From Flavobacteriaceae bacterium LYZ1037 (lineage in GTDB: Bacteria; Bacteroidota; Bacteroidia; Flavobacteriales; Flavobacteriaceae): DNA of 64,000 nucleotides. Made by a program: the position numbers and the translations under genes. The notes beneath the pieces are model-generated. The model made no database searches and was not told where the DNA came from. It was given only the letters and a program-made list of their open reading frames with translations. This document shows positions 28,887 through 47,426 of this stretch, piece after piece. The first letter of the stretch is position 1; every line of letters begins with the position of its first letter. The stretch covers positions 434,001 through 498,000 of the forward strand of contig QFWS01000001.1 of assembly GCA_003144015.1 (NCBI GenBank), read 5' to 3'.

Positions 28887-28924
28887 GTCATTGCGAGCCT
28901 GCCAGCAGGCAGGCTCGCAATGAC
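28887..28924. repeat. Perfect palindrome, family B: 17-bp stem, 4-nt loop
   Basis: GTCATTGCGAGCCTGCC, loop AGCA, then its exact reverse complement. It lies 6 bp after the tviB-like stop and 47 bp before the tviC-like ATG. The trailing sequence is A-rich, not T-rich, on the + strand, so it is not a standard intrinsic terminator. Confidence 0.97.
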
Positions 28925-28971
28925 GTTAAAAAAAAGCGCTCTCAATGACAATAATATATAAGTATATAATC

Positions 28972-29952
28972 ATGTATCAAAACCCATATCACAATCAAGA
29001 TTTATCAACTTTAAAATTTCTAGTTACTGGAGGCGCAGGCTTTATTGGATCAAACCTTGTAGGCTACTTATTAAAACACGGCGCTAAAAAAGTACGAGTA
29101 TTAGACAATTTTTCTAATGGTTATCGCGAGAACCTCACAGAATTTGAAGCAAACCCTGCTTTTGAATTATTAGAGGGTGATATTAGAGATCTAGCAACCT
29201 GCAAACAAGCTATGGTAGACATCGATTACGTGAGTCATCAAGCAGCTTTAGGCTCTGTGCCTCGTTCTATAAACGATCCTGCAACCACCAATGCCGTGAA
29301 TATCTCTGGCTTTTTAAACATGATGATCGCTTTAAAGGATAGTTCTACTGTAAAACGCATGGTCTATGCAGCATCCAGTTCCACTTATGGCGATAGCAAA
29401 AGCTTGCCTAAAGTAGAAGCGCATATAGGAAAACCGTTGTCGCCCTATGCGGTAACTAAGTATGTAAACGAACTCTATGCCGATGTCTTTAGTAAAACCT
29501 ATGGCACAGATGTGGTTGGCTTACGTTATTTTAATGTGTTTGGCCCTAAGCAAAGTCCGAATGGCGCTTATGCAGCCGTTATTCCCTTATTCATGCAGGC
29601 TCTTAAAGATAAAAAGGCACCAACCATCAATGGCGATGGCGAACAAACCCGCGATTTTACATTTGTAGCCAATGCCGTTCAAGCCAATGTAAAAGGCTTT
29701 TTTGCTTCCAAAGAAGCCAGTAACGAGGTGTTTAATGTGGCTTGTGGCGAACGTATTTCAGTCAACTATTTATGGGAGTCCTTAAATCAAGCAGCAAATG
29801 CCAATTTAAAAGCCATTCATGGACCAGACCGTCAAGGGGATGTGCGTGATTCGTTGGCTGATATTTCTAAAGCTGAAACGTTATTGGGGTACCAACCAGA
29901 ATATTCAGTCGGACAAGGCCTCAAAATCACTTGGGATTATTTTAATTCATAG
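28972..29952 (+). CDS. tviC: UDP-N-acetylglucosamine(uronate) 4-epimerase (TviC/WbpP-like SDR)
   Basis: The protein has an extended-SDR Rossmann motif ('FLVTGGAGFIGSNLVGYLL'), the 'DIDYVSHQAALGSVPRSINDP' substrate region, and the catalytic Y159-x3-K163 in 'SPYAVTKYVNELYA'. It also has 'GLRYFNVFGPKQSPNGAYAAVIP', typical of UDP-N-acetyl-sugar epimerases of the WbpP/TviC group. I start at the ATG at 28972 (MYQNPYHNQ), which agrees with family length (about 326-348 residues); the frame extends upstream to 28945 with a poor start. With the preceding dehydrogenase it should give UDP-GalNAcA or a related uronate. Its stop codon merges with a heptamer array, and the repeat island follows. Confidence 0.92.
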   Translation: MYQNPYHNQDLSTLKFLVTGGAGFIGSNLVGYLLKHGAKKVRVLDNFSNGYRENLTEFEANPAFELLEGDIRDLATCKQAMVDIDYVSHQAALGSVPRSINDPATTNAVNISGFLNMMIALKDSSTVKRMVYAASSSTYGDSKSLPKVEAHIGKPLSPYAVTKYVNELYADVFSKTYGTDVVGLRYFNVFGPKQSPNGAYAAVIPLFMQALKDKKAPTINGDGEQTRDFTFVANAVQANVKGFFASKEASNEVFNVACGERISVNYLWESLNQAANANLKAIHGPDRQGDVRDSLADISKAETLLGYQPEYSVGQGLKITWDYFNS

Positions 29953-29994: not shown

Positions 29995-30600
29995 GTCATT
30001 CAGAAGGAGCATTTTTGCGACTGAAGAATCTATAGTGTAGACAGTCAGAGATTCTTCGCTTACACTCTGAATGACATGAGAGATTCTTCGCTATGCTCTG
30101 AATGACAATGGTGTTCTGAATGACATTAGAGATTCTTTAATTTTCCAACGCGCCATCTGACCTCATCGCTAAAATAGTCCACTGGACTATTTTTTTACGC
30201 TCGATCCTGCTCTGAATGACAATGGCGCTCTGAAAGACATTAGAGATTCTTCGTTCCACTGCGTTTCACTCTGAATGACAATGATTGTGTCATTCAGAAG
30301 GAGCATTTTTGCGACTGAAGAATCTATTGAAAAAAGGAGTAGAGATTCTTCGCTTTGCTCTGAATGACAAGGAGGCTCTGAATGACATGAGAGATTCTTC
30401 GTTCCACTGCGTTTCACTCTGAATGACAAGGGGACTCTGGATGACAATGGTTGTGTCATTCAGAAGGAGCATTTTTGCGACTGAAGAATCTATAGTGTAG
30501 ACAGTCAGAGATTCTTCGCTTTGCTCTGAATGACAATGGTGTTCTGAATGACAATGGTGCTCTGAATGACAAGGGGACTCTGAAAGACAAGGGTGATTCT
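29995..30600. repeat. Left half of a repeat island: mosaic family A elements
   Basis: This 650-bp gene-free stretch is built of 'head' units GTCATTCAGAAGGAGC...GACTGAAGAATCTAT (at 29995, 30289 and 30455) and 'tail' units AGAGATTCTTCG...CTCTGAATGAC, many in series. The ends GTCATTCAGA and TCTGAATGAC are exact reverse complements, as are GAAGAATCT and AGATTCTTC, so head plus tail form an imperfect hairpin element. Truncated tails ('CTCTGAATGACAATGG') are stacked at 30520-30590. The short minus-strand ORFs here are artefacts of the repeat. No gene is seen. Confidence 0.92.
30135..30220. repeat. K module copy 1 within the repeat island
   Basis: The module runs from CTTTAATTTTCCAACG, through CGCCATCTGACCTCATCGC and a perfect hairpin (AAAATAGTCC, loop ACT, GGACTATTTT), to CGCTCGATCCTGCT. 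It is joined to a CTCTGAATGAC tail. Copies 2 and 3 lie at 31175 and 31395. Confidence 0.85.
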
Positions 30601-30606
30601 ATTAAT

Positions 30607-30915
30607 TTAAATATCATTATTCAAAAACTTACGAGTTGGATTAAACACATTAATTAAATCATCTTTTTTAGCTCTGCTGTAGCCTTTTATTTGTTTTTCT
30701 CTTTTAATTGCATCGTTTATTTCTGAAAAATGTTCATAATATATAAGATGAAAACATTTGTATTTTGTAGTAAAAGCTTTAGAAAATGGTAAAGGATTGT
30801 TATGATGAAATAGGCGTTCTTTTAGGTTGTTAGTAACCCCCGTGTAAAGAACCGTTTTTGTTTTGTTGGTTACAATATAAACATAGTAATTATGAGTCCC
30901 TTTTGTTTTCATCAA
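30607..30915 (-). CDS. Small GIY-YIG nuclease-domain protein embedded in repeats
   Basis: The 102-residue protein is a stand-alone GIY-YIG domain: 'YYVYIVTNKTKTVLYTGVTNNLKERLFHH' holds the two GIY-YIG-like strands (YVY and YTG) and the catalytic arginine region. 'DAIKREKQIKGYSRAKKDDLI' holds the conserved glutamate (REKQIKG). This is the usual length for the short UPF0213/endonuclease-like family in Bacteroidota. No DNA-binding domain is attached. It is the only gene inside a 1.6-kb island of family A repeats, is antisense to the surrounding polysaccharide operon, and starts and stops within tens of bases of repeat copies. Both facts suggest acquisition separate from the capsule genes. Its function (repair, homing, or repeat spread) is unknown. 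Confidence 0.88.
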   Translation of the reverse strand: MMKTKGTHNYYVYIVTNKTKTVLYTGVTNNLKERLFHHNNPLPFSKAFTTKYKCFHLIYYEHFSEINDAIKREKQIKGYSRAKKDDLINVFNPTRKFLNNDI

Positions 30916-31174
30916 ATTAAGATAGTGAAAAAGAATGAAAGTCTGAGTAAGAGATTCTTCGCTACGCTCTGAATGACATTAGAGATTCTTCGTTCCACTG
31001 CGTTTCACTCTGAATGACAATGGTTGTGTCATTCAGAAGGAGTATTTTTGCGACTGAAGAATCTATAGTGTAGACAGTCAGAGATTCTTCGCTACGCTCT
31101 GAATGACAATGGCGCTCTGAATGACATGAGAGATTCTTCGCTATGCTCTGAATGACAATGGTGCTCTGAATGAC

Positions 31175-31270
31175 ATTAGAGATTCTTTAATTTTCCAACG
31201 CGCCATCTGGCCTCATCGCTAAAATAGTCCACAGGACTATTTTTAAACGCTCGATCCTGCTATGAATGAC
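31175..31270. repeat. K module copy 2
   Basis: Same layout as copy 1 (CTTTAATTTTCCAACG...CGCTCGATCCTGCT). The hairpin loop region is CACAGG here, and the tail is TATGAATGAC. Confidence 0.85.
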
Positions 31271-31394
31271 AAGGGTTGTGTCATTCAGAAGGAGCATTTT
31301 TGCGACTGAAGAATCTATTGAAAAAAGGAGTAGAGATTCTTCGTTCCACTGCGTTTCACTCTGAATGACAATGGCGCTCTGAATGACAAGGGGG

Positions 31395-31484
31395 ATTCTT
31401 TGCTTTTCTACTGCGCCATCTGGCCTCTTCGGTAAAATAGTCCACTGGACTATTACTTAACCCTCGATCCTGCTCGCAATGACG
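31395..31484. repeat. K module copy 3, joined to a family B end
   Basis: It diverges from copies 1 and 2 (CTTTGCTTTTCTACTGCG, CTCTTCGGTAAAATAG) but keeps the TAGTCCACTGGACTA hairpin and TCGATCCTGCT. It then ends CTCGCAATGACGG, which is the family B terminus instead of CTCTGAATGAC. It therefore links the two repeat families. Confidence 0.82.
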
Positions 31485-31689
31485 GACGAAATAATTAATA
31501 GATTCATACTTCGTGCTTCGATGCTTCGATACTTCGACAAGCTCAGTACAGGCTCAGCTCAGCACAGGCTAGCTAGCAATGACATGGCTCGCAAAGAGGG
31601 ATTTAATAATTTTTAATTCTTATCTTGGTAATATTTCATAATTTAAACCCCTTTGTTTATATTAGCCACAACCAAAAATAGAACTAACA

Positions 31690-32553
31690 TTGAACAGGAA
31701 AGATGACGATACATGGTTATATACCATTTCCTCAAAGCGTAAATTAATAGATTTTAATTTTAAGGAAATTTGGCGTTATCGTGATTTGCTTATGTTGTTT
31801 GTTAAGCGTGATGTAATTACTGTATATAAGCAAACCATATTAGGTCCTTTATGGTATTTAATTCAGCCGCTATTTACTGCACTTACCTTTACTCTAATAT
31901 TTAATAAGGTAGCTAATATTGATACTGGTTCTGTACCTCCATTTCTATTTAATTTAGCTGGAATTTCAGTATGGAATTACTTTAAAACTTGTTTAACATC
32001 TACATCAGACACCTTTAAATCTAATGCTTCAATTTTTGGTAAAGTTTATTTTCCTCGTATAATTTTACCGCTTTCAATAATTATTTCAAATTTATTAAAG
32101 TTTGGTATTCAACTGCTCATCTTTATTGCGTTTTATATCTATTATTATAGTCAAGGAGCCAATATAAACATTACATCAAGTCTTATATTTTTTCCGCTAT
32201 TAGTTATTTTAATGGGATTATTAGGCTTAGGATTAGGCATGATAATTTCAAGCTTGGTAACCAAATATAGAGATCTAAAGTTTTTAGTCACTTTTGGGGT
32301 GCAATTACTTATGTATTTATCTGCTGTAATGTATCCTTTAGCTTTGATGCGTGAAAAATTACCAAAAGTAGCTTGGCTAGTGGAATATAATCCAGTGGCT
32401 TATATTATCGAAACAGCTCGTTACATGCTTTTGGGAGAAGGTACCATCCATTATTATGGCATTGTGTTTACAATAATTGTAACGATGGTTATTCTATTTT
32501 TCGGAATTATTATTTTTAATAGAACAGAAAAAACATTTATAGATACAGTTTAA
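31690..32553 (+). CDS. wzm: ABC-2 type polysaccharide exporter permease (Wzm/TagG-like)
   Basis: The 287-residue protein has six hydrophobic segments and belongs to the O-antigen/teichoic-acid exporter permeases. The N-terminal amphipathic gate 'FKEIWRYRDLLMLFVKRDVITVYKQTILGPLWYLIQPL' and 'VKRD...YKQT.LGPLW' are highly typical, as is the late 'YNPVAYIIETARYMLLG'. It starts at TTG (31690-31692), the only plausible in-frame start; related proteins begin at the same place. It exports a finished lipid-linked glycan across the inner membrane together with the Wzt-like ATPase at 33514. Its upstream side is the repeat island, so its promoter is unclear. Confidence 0.94.
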   Translation: MNRKDDDTWLYTISSKRKLIDFNFKEIWRYRDLLMLFVKRDVITVYKQTILGPLWYLIQPLFTALTFTLIFNKVANIDTGSVPPFLFNLAGISVWNYFKTCLTSTSDTFKSNASIFGKVYFPRIILPLSIIISNLLKFGIQLLIFIAFYIYYYSQGANINITSSLIFFPLLVILMGLLGLGLGMIISSLVTKYRDLKFLVTFGVQLLMYLSAVMYPLALMREKLPKVAWLVEYNPVAYIIETARYMLLGEGTIHYYGIVFTIIVTMVILFFGIIIFNRTEKTFIDTV

Positions 32554-44883: not shown

Positions 44884-46008
44884 ATGGCATTGCAAAAGAC
44901 AATTAAAGTAAGACAGGTTTTTCAATCGTATCCCATATTTTACCAGCCATATATCCCACCTGTTATGGATGCTTTATGGCAACATCCAGAACTGGATTTT
45001 GGAATACAGATCTTTGTTGAGGGAGAAGGGCCCTATGTAAATAAAATGCCTTCTTATTATTACCGTAGAATTTTTGAAAAGTTGCTGCAGAAGTTTAATA
45101 AAAAACCATATCCTCTTAATTACTTAGAATGGAAAGCGATTAAGCAAGATGTAGATGTCGTGCACATTCAAGACTCTTATTTGTTTAAAAAAATATATGG
45201 ACTCTTACATCTAGATGCAAAAAAGCGACCTAAGGTTGTTATCACTTTAAGAGGAAATGATACCTATGTAAAGCCTTGGATACAGAAAAAGTGGCAAGAC
45301 TTTTATAAAATTTATGGAAACAAAGTGGATGCCTTTATTGTAATGAGTATACACCAAAAAAACTACTTGCATACCAATTGGGGAATTTCTCTTGATAGAA
45401 TTCATGTCATTCCTATTTCCTATGGAAACAAACATGCGCATCAACCGAAAACCTTAAATAGTGAGACTATTAAAATTGTATCAGCTTTTAGAATGTGCTG
45501 GGAAAAAAACATTGATGGTAATTTAAGAACAATTGCTCACTTAAAATCATTGGGAGCAAAAATAAAATACGATTTATATGGAGATGGTCCAGATGCAGGA
45601 CAGGTATCTTATTTAATAAACAAATACGATTTGCAGTATGAAGTCTGTTATCATGGACGTATTGAAAATAAAGAATTAAAAAAGCGTTTAATTGATTATG
45701 ATTTTTTTCTTCAATTAAGTCATTCAGATGCTTTGCCTACGAGTGTTTTAGAAGCACAATCTTATGGTTTGCCTGCTATTGTAGCTAATAGTGGAGGTTT
45801 GCCTGAGTCTATTGTGCCTTATAAAAGTGGCTATGTAGTAGAGGCTTATGATACTAAACAGGCTGCAAAAGCGATTTTAGATTTATGGAACGATTCTAAA
45901 AAGTACGAAAATTTTTCACAACAGGCCATAGCTCATTCGCAAACTAATTTCACCATTTCCAATGAAGTCAATAGATTATTAATGCTTTATAGATCCTTAT
46001 CTGAGTAA
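44884..46008 (+). CDS. GT4 glycosyltransferase
   Basis: The 374-residue GT-B protein has 'DVVHIQDSYLFKKIYGLLHL' in the N-terminal domain, 'KIVSAFRMCWEKNIDGNLRTI' at the start of the C-terminal domain, 'LYGDGPDAGQVSYLINKY', and 'LSHSDALPTSVLEAQSYGLPAIVANSGGLPESIVPYKSGYVVEA'. In the donor loop the first glutamate of E-x7-E is replaced by Ser/Asp (SDALPTSVLE), which is seen in some GT4 members and may reflect different donor use. Length is normal. The next gene starts 1 bp after its stop. Confidence 0.9.
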   Translation: MALQKTIKVRQVFQSYPIFYQPYIPPVMDALWQHPELDFGIQIFVEGEGPYVNKMPSYYYRRIFEKLLQKFNKKPYPLNYLEWKAIKQDVDVVHIQDSYLFKKIYGLLHLDAKKRPKVVITLRGNDTYVKPWIQKKWQDFYKIYGNKVDAFIVMSIHQKNYLHTNWGISLDRIHVIPISYGNKHAHQPKTLNSETIKIVSAFRMCWEKNIDGNLRTIAHLKSLGAKIKYDLYGDGPDAGQVSYLINKYDLQYEVCYHGRIENKELKKRLIDYDFFLQLSHSDALPTSVLEAQSYGLPAIVANSGGLPESIVPYKSGYVVEAYDTKQAAKAILDLWNDSKKYENFSQQAIAHSQTNFTISNEVNRLLMLYRSLSE

Positions 46009-46009
46009 T

Positions 46010-47257
46010 TTGAAAACACCAATTAAAATAGCCATTTACTCAGGTGTCTTACCTGCAACTACCTTTATTGAAAACCTCATTACAGAAGTAGGGAAGCAAC
46101 ACAAGGTCTATCTGTTTGGTACCATAAAAGTTCCAACCTCCTATACATCAAAAAACATTCATATAGTTGAAACATCTACCAATCAGTGGCAAAACATCCC
46201 ACAAACAATTTTAAGGGTTTGTCAATTACTTATTAAAAGACCAAAACGTGTTTGGATAGCCTATAAAGAAGCCAAACGTTATAAAACACCTTATGAACAA
46301 TGGATGCGTTTTTCACGTTTTATTCCAGTATTATTATATCAACCAGATGTGTTTCACTTACAATGGGCCTCTAAAATAGACCGTTGGATGTTTTTAAAGC
46401 AGGCTTACAACTGTAAAATAATATTAAGCTTACTAGGGTCCAATATTAATATAGATCCAATTACAAAACCAATTTTAAAAGACTGGTACCTCAAGCATTT
46501 CCCAAATATCGATGCCTTTCATGCGGTGTCTCACCATTTAGCCAAAGCAGCAATTGGTTTTGGAGCAAACCCAGAAAAACTAAAAGTCATTAGAACAACC
46601 ATTCTAGAAGAGACTTTTAATTACTTTAAGCCCAAAACCAAATTGAATGAAACTATAGAACTTCTTTCTGTTGGAAGACATCATCAGGTAAAAGGTTACA
46701 AACATGCTATCTTAGCTATAAAAACATTAAAAAATCAAGGTGTCAAAGTTAAATATACTATAATTGCTCAAGGTTTAGTCCCAGAGGAATTATTATTGTT
46801 GGTTCAACAACAAGAATTGCAGGGTCAAGTGTTTTTTAAAGATGGATTACCTCAAGAAAAATTGTTTACTGCCATGCAAAACTATGATGCCTTAGTGCTA
46901 CCTAGTTTAAGCGAGGGGATTGCAAACGTAGTGTTAGAGGCTATGTTATTAGGTGTCCCAGTCATTTCTACCAACTGTGGAGGGATGCCAGAAGTGGTGA
47001 TTCCTAAAGAAACAGGCTGGTTGGTGCCTGTTGCAAACCCCGAAGCTCTTAGTAATGGCATCATTGATTTTATATACACAGATAAAGATGAAATAGAACA
47101 AATAACAAACAATGCATTTCAATTAGTAAACACCCAATTTGATACCCAAACAGTCGTTAAACAATATATAGAACTTTATGAATCTGTTTGTCATTCAGAA
47201 GGTTGCATGAAAGCAAGCACTGCTTTCTTGAGGGCACAAAGCGAAGCTAACGACTGA
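46010..47257 (+). CDS. GT4 glycosyltransferase with repeat-encoded C-terminal tail
   Basis: The 415-residue GT-B protein starts at TTG (46010) as 'LKTPIKIAIYSGVLPATTFIENLI'. Its C-terminal domain has 'LLSVGRHHQVKGYKHAILAI' and 'PSLSEGIANVVLEAMLLGVPVISTNCGGMPEVVIPKETGWLVPV', a perfect EGIANVVLE donor motif. It is closely paralogous to the gene at 47496, which ends '...LELYESIVND'. Here the frame goes on past '...IELYESV' for 22 residues (394-415, CHSEGCMKAS...SEAND). These are encoded by a family A repeat copy starting GTCATTCAGAAGG at 47190. The tail is therefore probably not part of the ancestral protein. Enzyme core confidence is high. Confidence 0.93.
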   Translation: MKTPIKIAIYSGVLPATTFIENLITEVGKQHKVYLFGTIKVPTSYTSKNIHIVETSTNQWQNIPQTILRVCQLLIKRPKRVWIAYKEAKRYKTPYEQWMRFSRFIPVLLYQPDVFHLQWASKIDRWMFLKQAYNCKIILSLLGSNINIDPITKPILKDWYLKHFPNIDAFHAVSHHLAKAAIGFGANPEKLKVIRTTILEETFNYFKPKTKLNETIELLSVGRHHQVKGYKHAILAIKTLKNQGVKVKYTIIAQGLVPEELLLLVQQQELQGQVFFKDGLPQEKLFTAMQNYDALVLPSLSEGIANVVLEAMLLGVPVISTNCGGMPEVVIPKETGWLVPVANPEALSNGIIDFIYTDKDEIEQITNNAFQLVNTQFDTQTVVKQYIELYESVCHSEGCMKASTAFLRAQSEAND

Positions 47258-47276: not shown

Positions 47277-47335
47277 GTAGCTAATCTCTTTAAAAAATAA
47301 TTTTGATATAGATACCAAAAAGTATTTTATTTAAC

Positions 47336-47426
47336 TAACAACTAACAACTAACAACTAACAACTAACAACTAACAACTAACAACTAACAACTAACAACTA
47401 ACAACTAACAACTAACAACTAACAGA
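47336..47426. repeat. Tandem heptamer array (TAACAAC)12 plus TAACAGA
   Basis: Twelve perfect TAACAAC units (47336-47419) are followed by TAACAGA and CAAC. The last unit already shows the CAGACAA sequence that makes up the array at 54583. It lies in the 238-bp spacer between two paralogous GT4 genes. Confidence 0.97.

Follow-up and report, generated by a model that had tools for sequence, protein, structure and literature searches.

Small stand-alone GIY-YIG nucleases form a gene family whose members probably each occupy a cassette of their own, in which the enzyme would nick its flanking hairpins and host repair would then copy, lose or rearrange the units. Several observations bear on this reading: the gene is associated with the repeats, the cassette has a recurring layout with unlike ends, the hairpin stems covary, the repeats track the protein, the same genomic sites occur in alternative states and the protein is conserved. 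Together, they suggest a single small mobile unit made up of the gene and its repeats. GTCAT-headed hairpin repeats are a scattered feature of many genomes, and how they arose is largely unexplained.

A nuclease gene within a repeat island

The window (the whole 64,000-nucleotide stretch of DNA analysed here) comes from the genome of a marine Xanthomarina, 3.19 Mb in 36 contigs. In this genome, the motif GTCATTCAGA occurs 36 times, with 24 of the copies packed between window positions 29995 and 31387, and a control pattern, the same motif read backwards, occurs once. The island lies in a polysaccharide locus, between genes for a tviC-like epimerase (28945–29952) and a wzm-like ABC-2 transporter (31690–32553), and contains a single intact gene, the remaining listed frames overlapping repeats. 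The original prediction, which placed a GIY-YIG nuclease gene in the centre of the repeats, is confirmed by this arrangement. The features are as follows:

29995–31387, no strand: repeat island in which type A and type B hairpin units form a mosaic, with 24 exact GTCATTCAGA heads and three one-base variants
30607–30912, minus strand: stand-alone GIY-YIG nuclease gene, 101 aa (PF01541, alignment, dN/dS, AF2 fold)
30952–30977, minus strand: type A unit directly upstream of the GIY-YIG gene, forming the left end of its cassette
30455–30491, plus strand: type B unit, the closest right-end unit 3′ of the GIY-YIG gene, bracketing the cassette with 30952–30977
30509–30588, minus strand: type A unit and additional GTC heads, separating the type B end from the gene
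29995–30075, no strand: gene-less B...A pair, 81 bp
30289–30368, no strand: gene-less B...A pair, 80 bp
31028–31107, no strand: gene-less B...A pair, 80 bp
31280–31369, no strand: gene-less B...A pair, 90 bp
28887–28924, no strand: solo perfect palindrome GTCATTGCGAG...CTCGCAATGAC, 38 bp, in the tviB/tviC gap

The island had been described as mosaic copies of one inverted-repeat element; the mosaic stands, but its units are of two kinds. All five plus-strand units are of type B (GTCATTCAGAAGGAG...GCGACTGAAGAATCT) and all minus-strand units are of type A (GTCATTCAGAGCGNAGCGAAGAATCT and variants). Because the former is the right-end and the latter the left-end type, the island resembles a single cassette accompanied by derivatives without a gene, and the strand pattern of the A/B pairing is what would be expected for a minus-strand cassette plus such derivatives. 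Taking 30455–30977 as the cassette, with extra type A units and heads between its type B end and the gene, is our own reading of a mosaic. B...A pairs with no gene between them number five in the island and span 80–90 bp each.

Some units carry, nested in their loop, a second repeat with a near-palindrome of its own, AAAATAGTCCACTGGACTATTTT (window 30131–30220, 31183–31260 and 31400–31475), and a stretch resembling it is also found in the congener G303 (locus L163, 2084–2145). Outside the island, the window has solo copies of GTCATTCAGA at 45719–45728 and 47190–47199, and at 47334–47424 the matches to a congener locus shift by seven bases, so that a short period-7 tandem repeat is likely there.

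The gene itself, first delimited as a 102-aa frame at 30607–30915, is upheld by a profile search (PF01541, E = 1.5 × 10−16), and only its start is revised: the ATG that gives 30607–30912 and 101 aa is most likely the correct one, because homologues align from the second methionine. Family residues Y12, Y23, G25, R33, H37, E72 and N91 are intact in the alignment, and comparison with the closest relative (dN 0.062, dS 0.34, dN/dS roughly 0.18) shows that the gene is under purifying selection. An AF2 model of the protein has a pLDDT of 90 and matches the GIY-YIG folds of UPF0213, Slx1 and UvrC. No other stand-alone GIY-YIG gene is present in the source genome, where the two further matches sit in frames of 467 and 600 aa. 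In a domain search of the cassette gene, GIY-YIG was the only domain above cut-off, with neither a transposase domain nor an HUH/Y1 catalytic domain found.

Repeats accompany the gene across homologues

Enrichment of repeats near homologues had been set beforehand as a test, for which we collected 79 homologue loci by protein similarity alone, in a set that includes assemblies of Bacteroidota, Patescibacteria, Thermodesulfovibrio, Elusimicrobia and Spirochaetota. The enrichment was found: GTCATNNNGA occurs within 300 bp of the gene in 78 of the 79 loci, and its density falls roughly 50-fold, from 7.95 per kb at up to 300 bp to about 0.15 per kb at 4–10 kb. As the loci have common ancestry and their counts are not independent, we give these densities in place of a p value. 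The enrichment is restricted to the 300–500 bp around the gene, and the backwards-read GTCATNNNGA control is flat (0.03–0.13 per kb). The gene–repeat association is therefore real and specific.

The stricter motif GTCATTYNGA is found within 500 bp of the gene in all 47 homologues with at least 61% identity. On its own it is absent within that distance at 14 of the 79 loci, of which the relaxed GTCATNNNGA picks up all except L112, and this one locus bears a GTCATTCCCG hairpin. A loose short pattern, TTCAGARNGARNN, proved uninformative. Only three weak matches were found in phage records.

Two loci deserve separate description. At L190 (genome G255, about 834–843 kb of the contig), a stretch of 5 kb contains four gene copies that are nearly identical, together with their repeats, and adjoins a further array of gene-less repeats. 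At L223, on plasmid p1 of Planktothrix agardhii, GTCATTCTGA and GTCATCCTGA units flank the gene, and the cassette is located between an MmeI-type restriction gene and the DISARM gene drmA.

The kind of repeat also goes with the kind of protein. The two letters that follow GTCATT (CA, CT, CC, TC or GC) cluster on the protein tree, with 24 changes compared to 46.0 when shuffled, a value as low as 24 being reached in 0 of 200 shuffles; for single types, there are 5 changes compared to 24.4 for CA and 3 compared to 10.5 for GC. The repeat variant follows the protein tree; few columns underlie this tree, many of its forks are weak, and near-copies inflate clustering tests of this kind.

Cassette anatomy

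The recurring minimal cassette consists of a left hairpin, the gene and a right hairpin, with the GTC heads outermost at both ends and terminal inverted repeats, GTCATNNNGA...TCNNNATGAC, around the gene. The upstream unit lies roughly 30–60 nt from the gene and the downstream unit roughly 23–30 nt past the stop codon. Upstream of the gene, the nearest unit is oriented as in the minimal cassette at 49 of 57 loci; downstream, this holds for 47 of 63. The two ends differ, as a GGAG...CGAC signature is carried by 20 of 49 downstream units compared to 3 of 52 upstream ones (p = 2 × 10−5). Genome G248 likewise contains dispersed A/B pairs.

Each unit has the layout of a potential hairpin, GTC-AT(stem)-GA-loop-(stem)AT-CT. 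Among 154 units, stem position 3 is paired in 137 (94 expected from composition) and position 4 in 129 (89 expected from composition), and these two covarying positions use all four Watson–Crick types. Position 5 is paired in only 85 of 154 (45 expected), because CA-type units have an A·A mismatch there. A fold more stable than that of shuffled sequences is reached only by the 80-nt pair, which forms a single hairpin (z = −3.6), and by the solo palindrome, not by single units. For single units we thus base the hairpin on covariation and not on energy.

Orthologous sites occur in alternative states

We compared the presence and absence of cassettes over eight Xanthomarina genomes. At one site (site B), a GC-type cassette stands between two genes in G261, and in G301 its right end is found at a contig end; in five others (G000, G300, G038, G299 and G302) the gap measures 10–32 bp and has no cassette. 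At another (site A), G038 has a decayed CA-type gene flanked by an A end and a B end, G299, G302 and G303 have gene-less repeats, and G000, G300 and G261 have no repeat. Between tviB and tviC, G300 has a gene-bearing GC cassette whose flanks match those of the palindrome at 28887–28924 in the window; the gap is gene-bearing in G303 too and repeat-free in G261 and G301. The same site can thus hold a gene-bearing form in one genome and a gene-less form in another, and congeners carry cassettes of a sister family (GC-type) in the polysaccharide locus that houses the island.

The interval that holds the island follows the same pattern. Around 1.6 kb of operon DNA had been taken to be replaced by repeats, a view the comparison does not support: the island reads as an insertion, because in G261 the same genes, tviC and wzm, lie 249 bp apart without repeats, compared to about 1.74 kb with the island in the window. 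In G302, this interval contains a smaller island in which the orthologous gene adjoins tviC. At site B, where the flanks differ among species, no target-site duplication is apparent, and no excised form of the cassette was seen at the sites compared.

Repeat copy number with and without the gene

Among 299 genomes of the family, 18 have a close homologue (at least 61% identity) and 281 do not. As anticipated by the original prediction, genomes with the gene have more repeats, with a median of 13.5 copies of GTCATTCAGA compared to 3 in the others (p = 1.2 × 10−5, or 3.8 × 10−5 when the window genome is left out), and the backwards control does not differ (median 3 compared to 3, p = 0.58).

Genomes with many repeats and no such gene had been named as evidence against the idea, and at least one exists. 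G094 has 133 copies of GTCATTCAGA, 73 of them full hairpins, and its GIY-YIG domains occur only in larger frames, with no stand-alone gene; conversely, at most five exact repeats are found in 7 of the 18 genomes that encode a close homologue. The association stands, but the repeats can be maintained in the absence of the gene. G094 may have lost the gene, have a gap in its assembly or harbour another mover.

A proposed mechanism and its rivals

Cutting, specificity and mobility are what we infer from these observations. The GIY-YIG enzyme would recognise and nick its own hairpin in single-stranded DNA, on the lagging strand or during transformation uptake. Since GIY-YIG enzymes would not be expected to religate the ends themselves, the copying, deletion or rearrangement of units would then fall to host repair and to recombination between repeats. 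Cassettes that lose their gene would persist as short non-autonomous hairpin pairs.

The main rival, to which we give a limited but real chance, involves target-site control and no mobility. A resident Ssn-like enzyme would shape transformation or recombination by cutting single-stranded DNA, whether incoming or exposed, at scattered repeats; those beside the gene would be kept for regulation or by local recombination, and would not be spread by the gene. The gonococcal homologue, which sits in a dRS3 array, fits this scheme, as do a gene that is conserved and under selection and the Ssn nuclease and NTS repeat, which are said to modulate transformation in Neisseria. Gene-bearing cassettes with defined ends that are present or absent at orthologous sites do not fit it; nor do the identical end types around the gene and in gene-less pairs, or a cassette form that recurs across phyla.

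The repeats might instead be mobilised by another system, such as a transposase elsewhere, or amplified by recombination alone, with the nuclease gene riding along as a passenger or as their parasite; we consider this rather unlikely. It would sit well with repeat-rich G094, which has no stand-alone copy, and with the local arrays in G255 and the window, which are of the kind made by unequal recombination, but a passenger does not predict end-specific hairpins around itself, repeats concentrated at the gene over many phyla or a repeat type that follows the nuclease clade. That the gene merely landed by chance in a repeat cluster of the source genome, with no general association, is barely credible: repeats do stand alone elsewhere in that genome, but the distance profile and the backwards-read control rule out chance clustering, and the roughly 50-fold enrichment within 300–500 bp in 78 of 79 loci, the fixed orientation, the end asymmetry and the tree tracking all speak against it.

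Under the cassette reading, we tentatively raise a broader idea, which may well prove too wide: that the GTCAT-headed intergenic repeats common in bacteria, including dRS3 of Neisseria, stem from a phylum-wide class of tiny mobile cassettes, which move with a GIY-YIG nuclease in place of a transposase and each have covarying hairpin ends of their own. If each repeat family has its own nuclease cassette, then its spread, any rearrangement of surface-polysaccharide loci by the repeats and a nuclease specificity code all become testable, and the roughly 79 natural enzyme–repeat pairs with covarying stems gathered here could serve to read that code.

Comparison with known systems

The nearest known system is the Ssn family. 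A 2025 study in Nature Communications reportedly describes site-specific single-strand GIY-YIG nucleases together with an NTS repeat in Neisseria, with thousands of homologues. Our search found a gonococcal GIY-YIG homologue with 36% identity over 91 aa, encoded on a chromosome filed among plasmids and surrounded by 16 dRS3 repeats with GTCATTCCC heads; we take it to be SsnA, and its kin are presumably the Ssn single-strand nucleases. Two records labelled as gonococcal plasmids, NZ_CP119140.1 and NZ_CP119142.1, each measure about 2.17 Mb and appear to be chromosomes. Like Ssn, the window protein is a small stand-alone GIY-YIG enzyme, and its family has its own repeated sequence, a putative target, in the genome and around the gene; the heads of the dRS3 repeats around the gonococcal homologue also begin with GTCATT. 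The two differ in sequence specificity.

The dRS3 elements are short hairpin repeats, ATTCCC(N8)GGGAAT, found in intergenic mosaic arrays at almost 700 copies (PMC3898611). At the gonococcal locus they too have a GTC head beyond the stem and lie around a gene of this kind, but their stem sequence differs and they are far more numerous.

Homing endonucleases of group I introns had been invoked for their GIY-YIG domain, and this link holds as an analogy only: the catalytic domain is shared, and spread by a break and host repair is the analogy we propose, but there is no intron or intein here, as the gene is intergenic and no intron or intein model scored above cut-off (TIGR01453, 21.1 bits compared to a cut-off of 56.05). 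The cassettes share terminal inverted repeats with insertion sequences and MITEs, but differ from them in that no transposase domain was found in the cassette gene.

RAYT (TnpAREP) proteins and their REP, BIME and REPIN sequences were the other parallel drawn at the outset, and REPtrons reportedly do not transpose as whole units (PMC6006769). Of that parallel, the association of nuclease and repeat holds; repeats can persist without the gene, and a role of the nuclease in spreading them is putative. As in REPtrons, one nuclease gene lies between inverted hairpin repeats of its own type, gene-less pairs are dispersed and repeat type is specific to a protein clade. Unlike REPtrons, which have an HUH enzyme and a 5′ GTAG/GTGG foot, the cassettes described here have a GIY-YIG enzyme and a GTC foot before an AT-stem, and they are present or absent as units and appear to come and go as such. 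The pairing of gene and repeat has probably been published already and the anatomy of the cassette may not have been; what this work may add are the cassette ends, the gene-less derivatives and the presence and absence of cassettes at orthologous sites.
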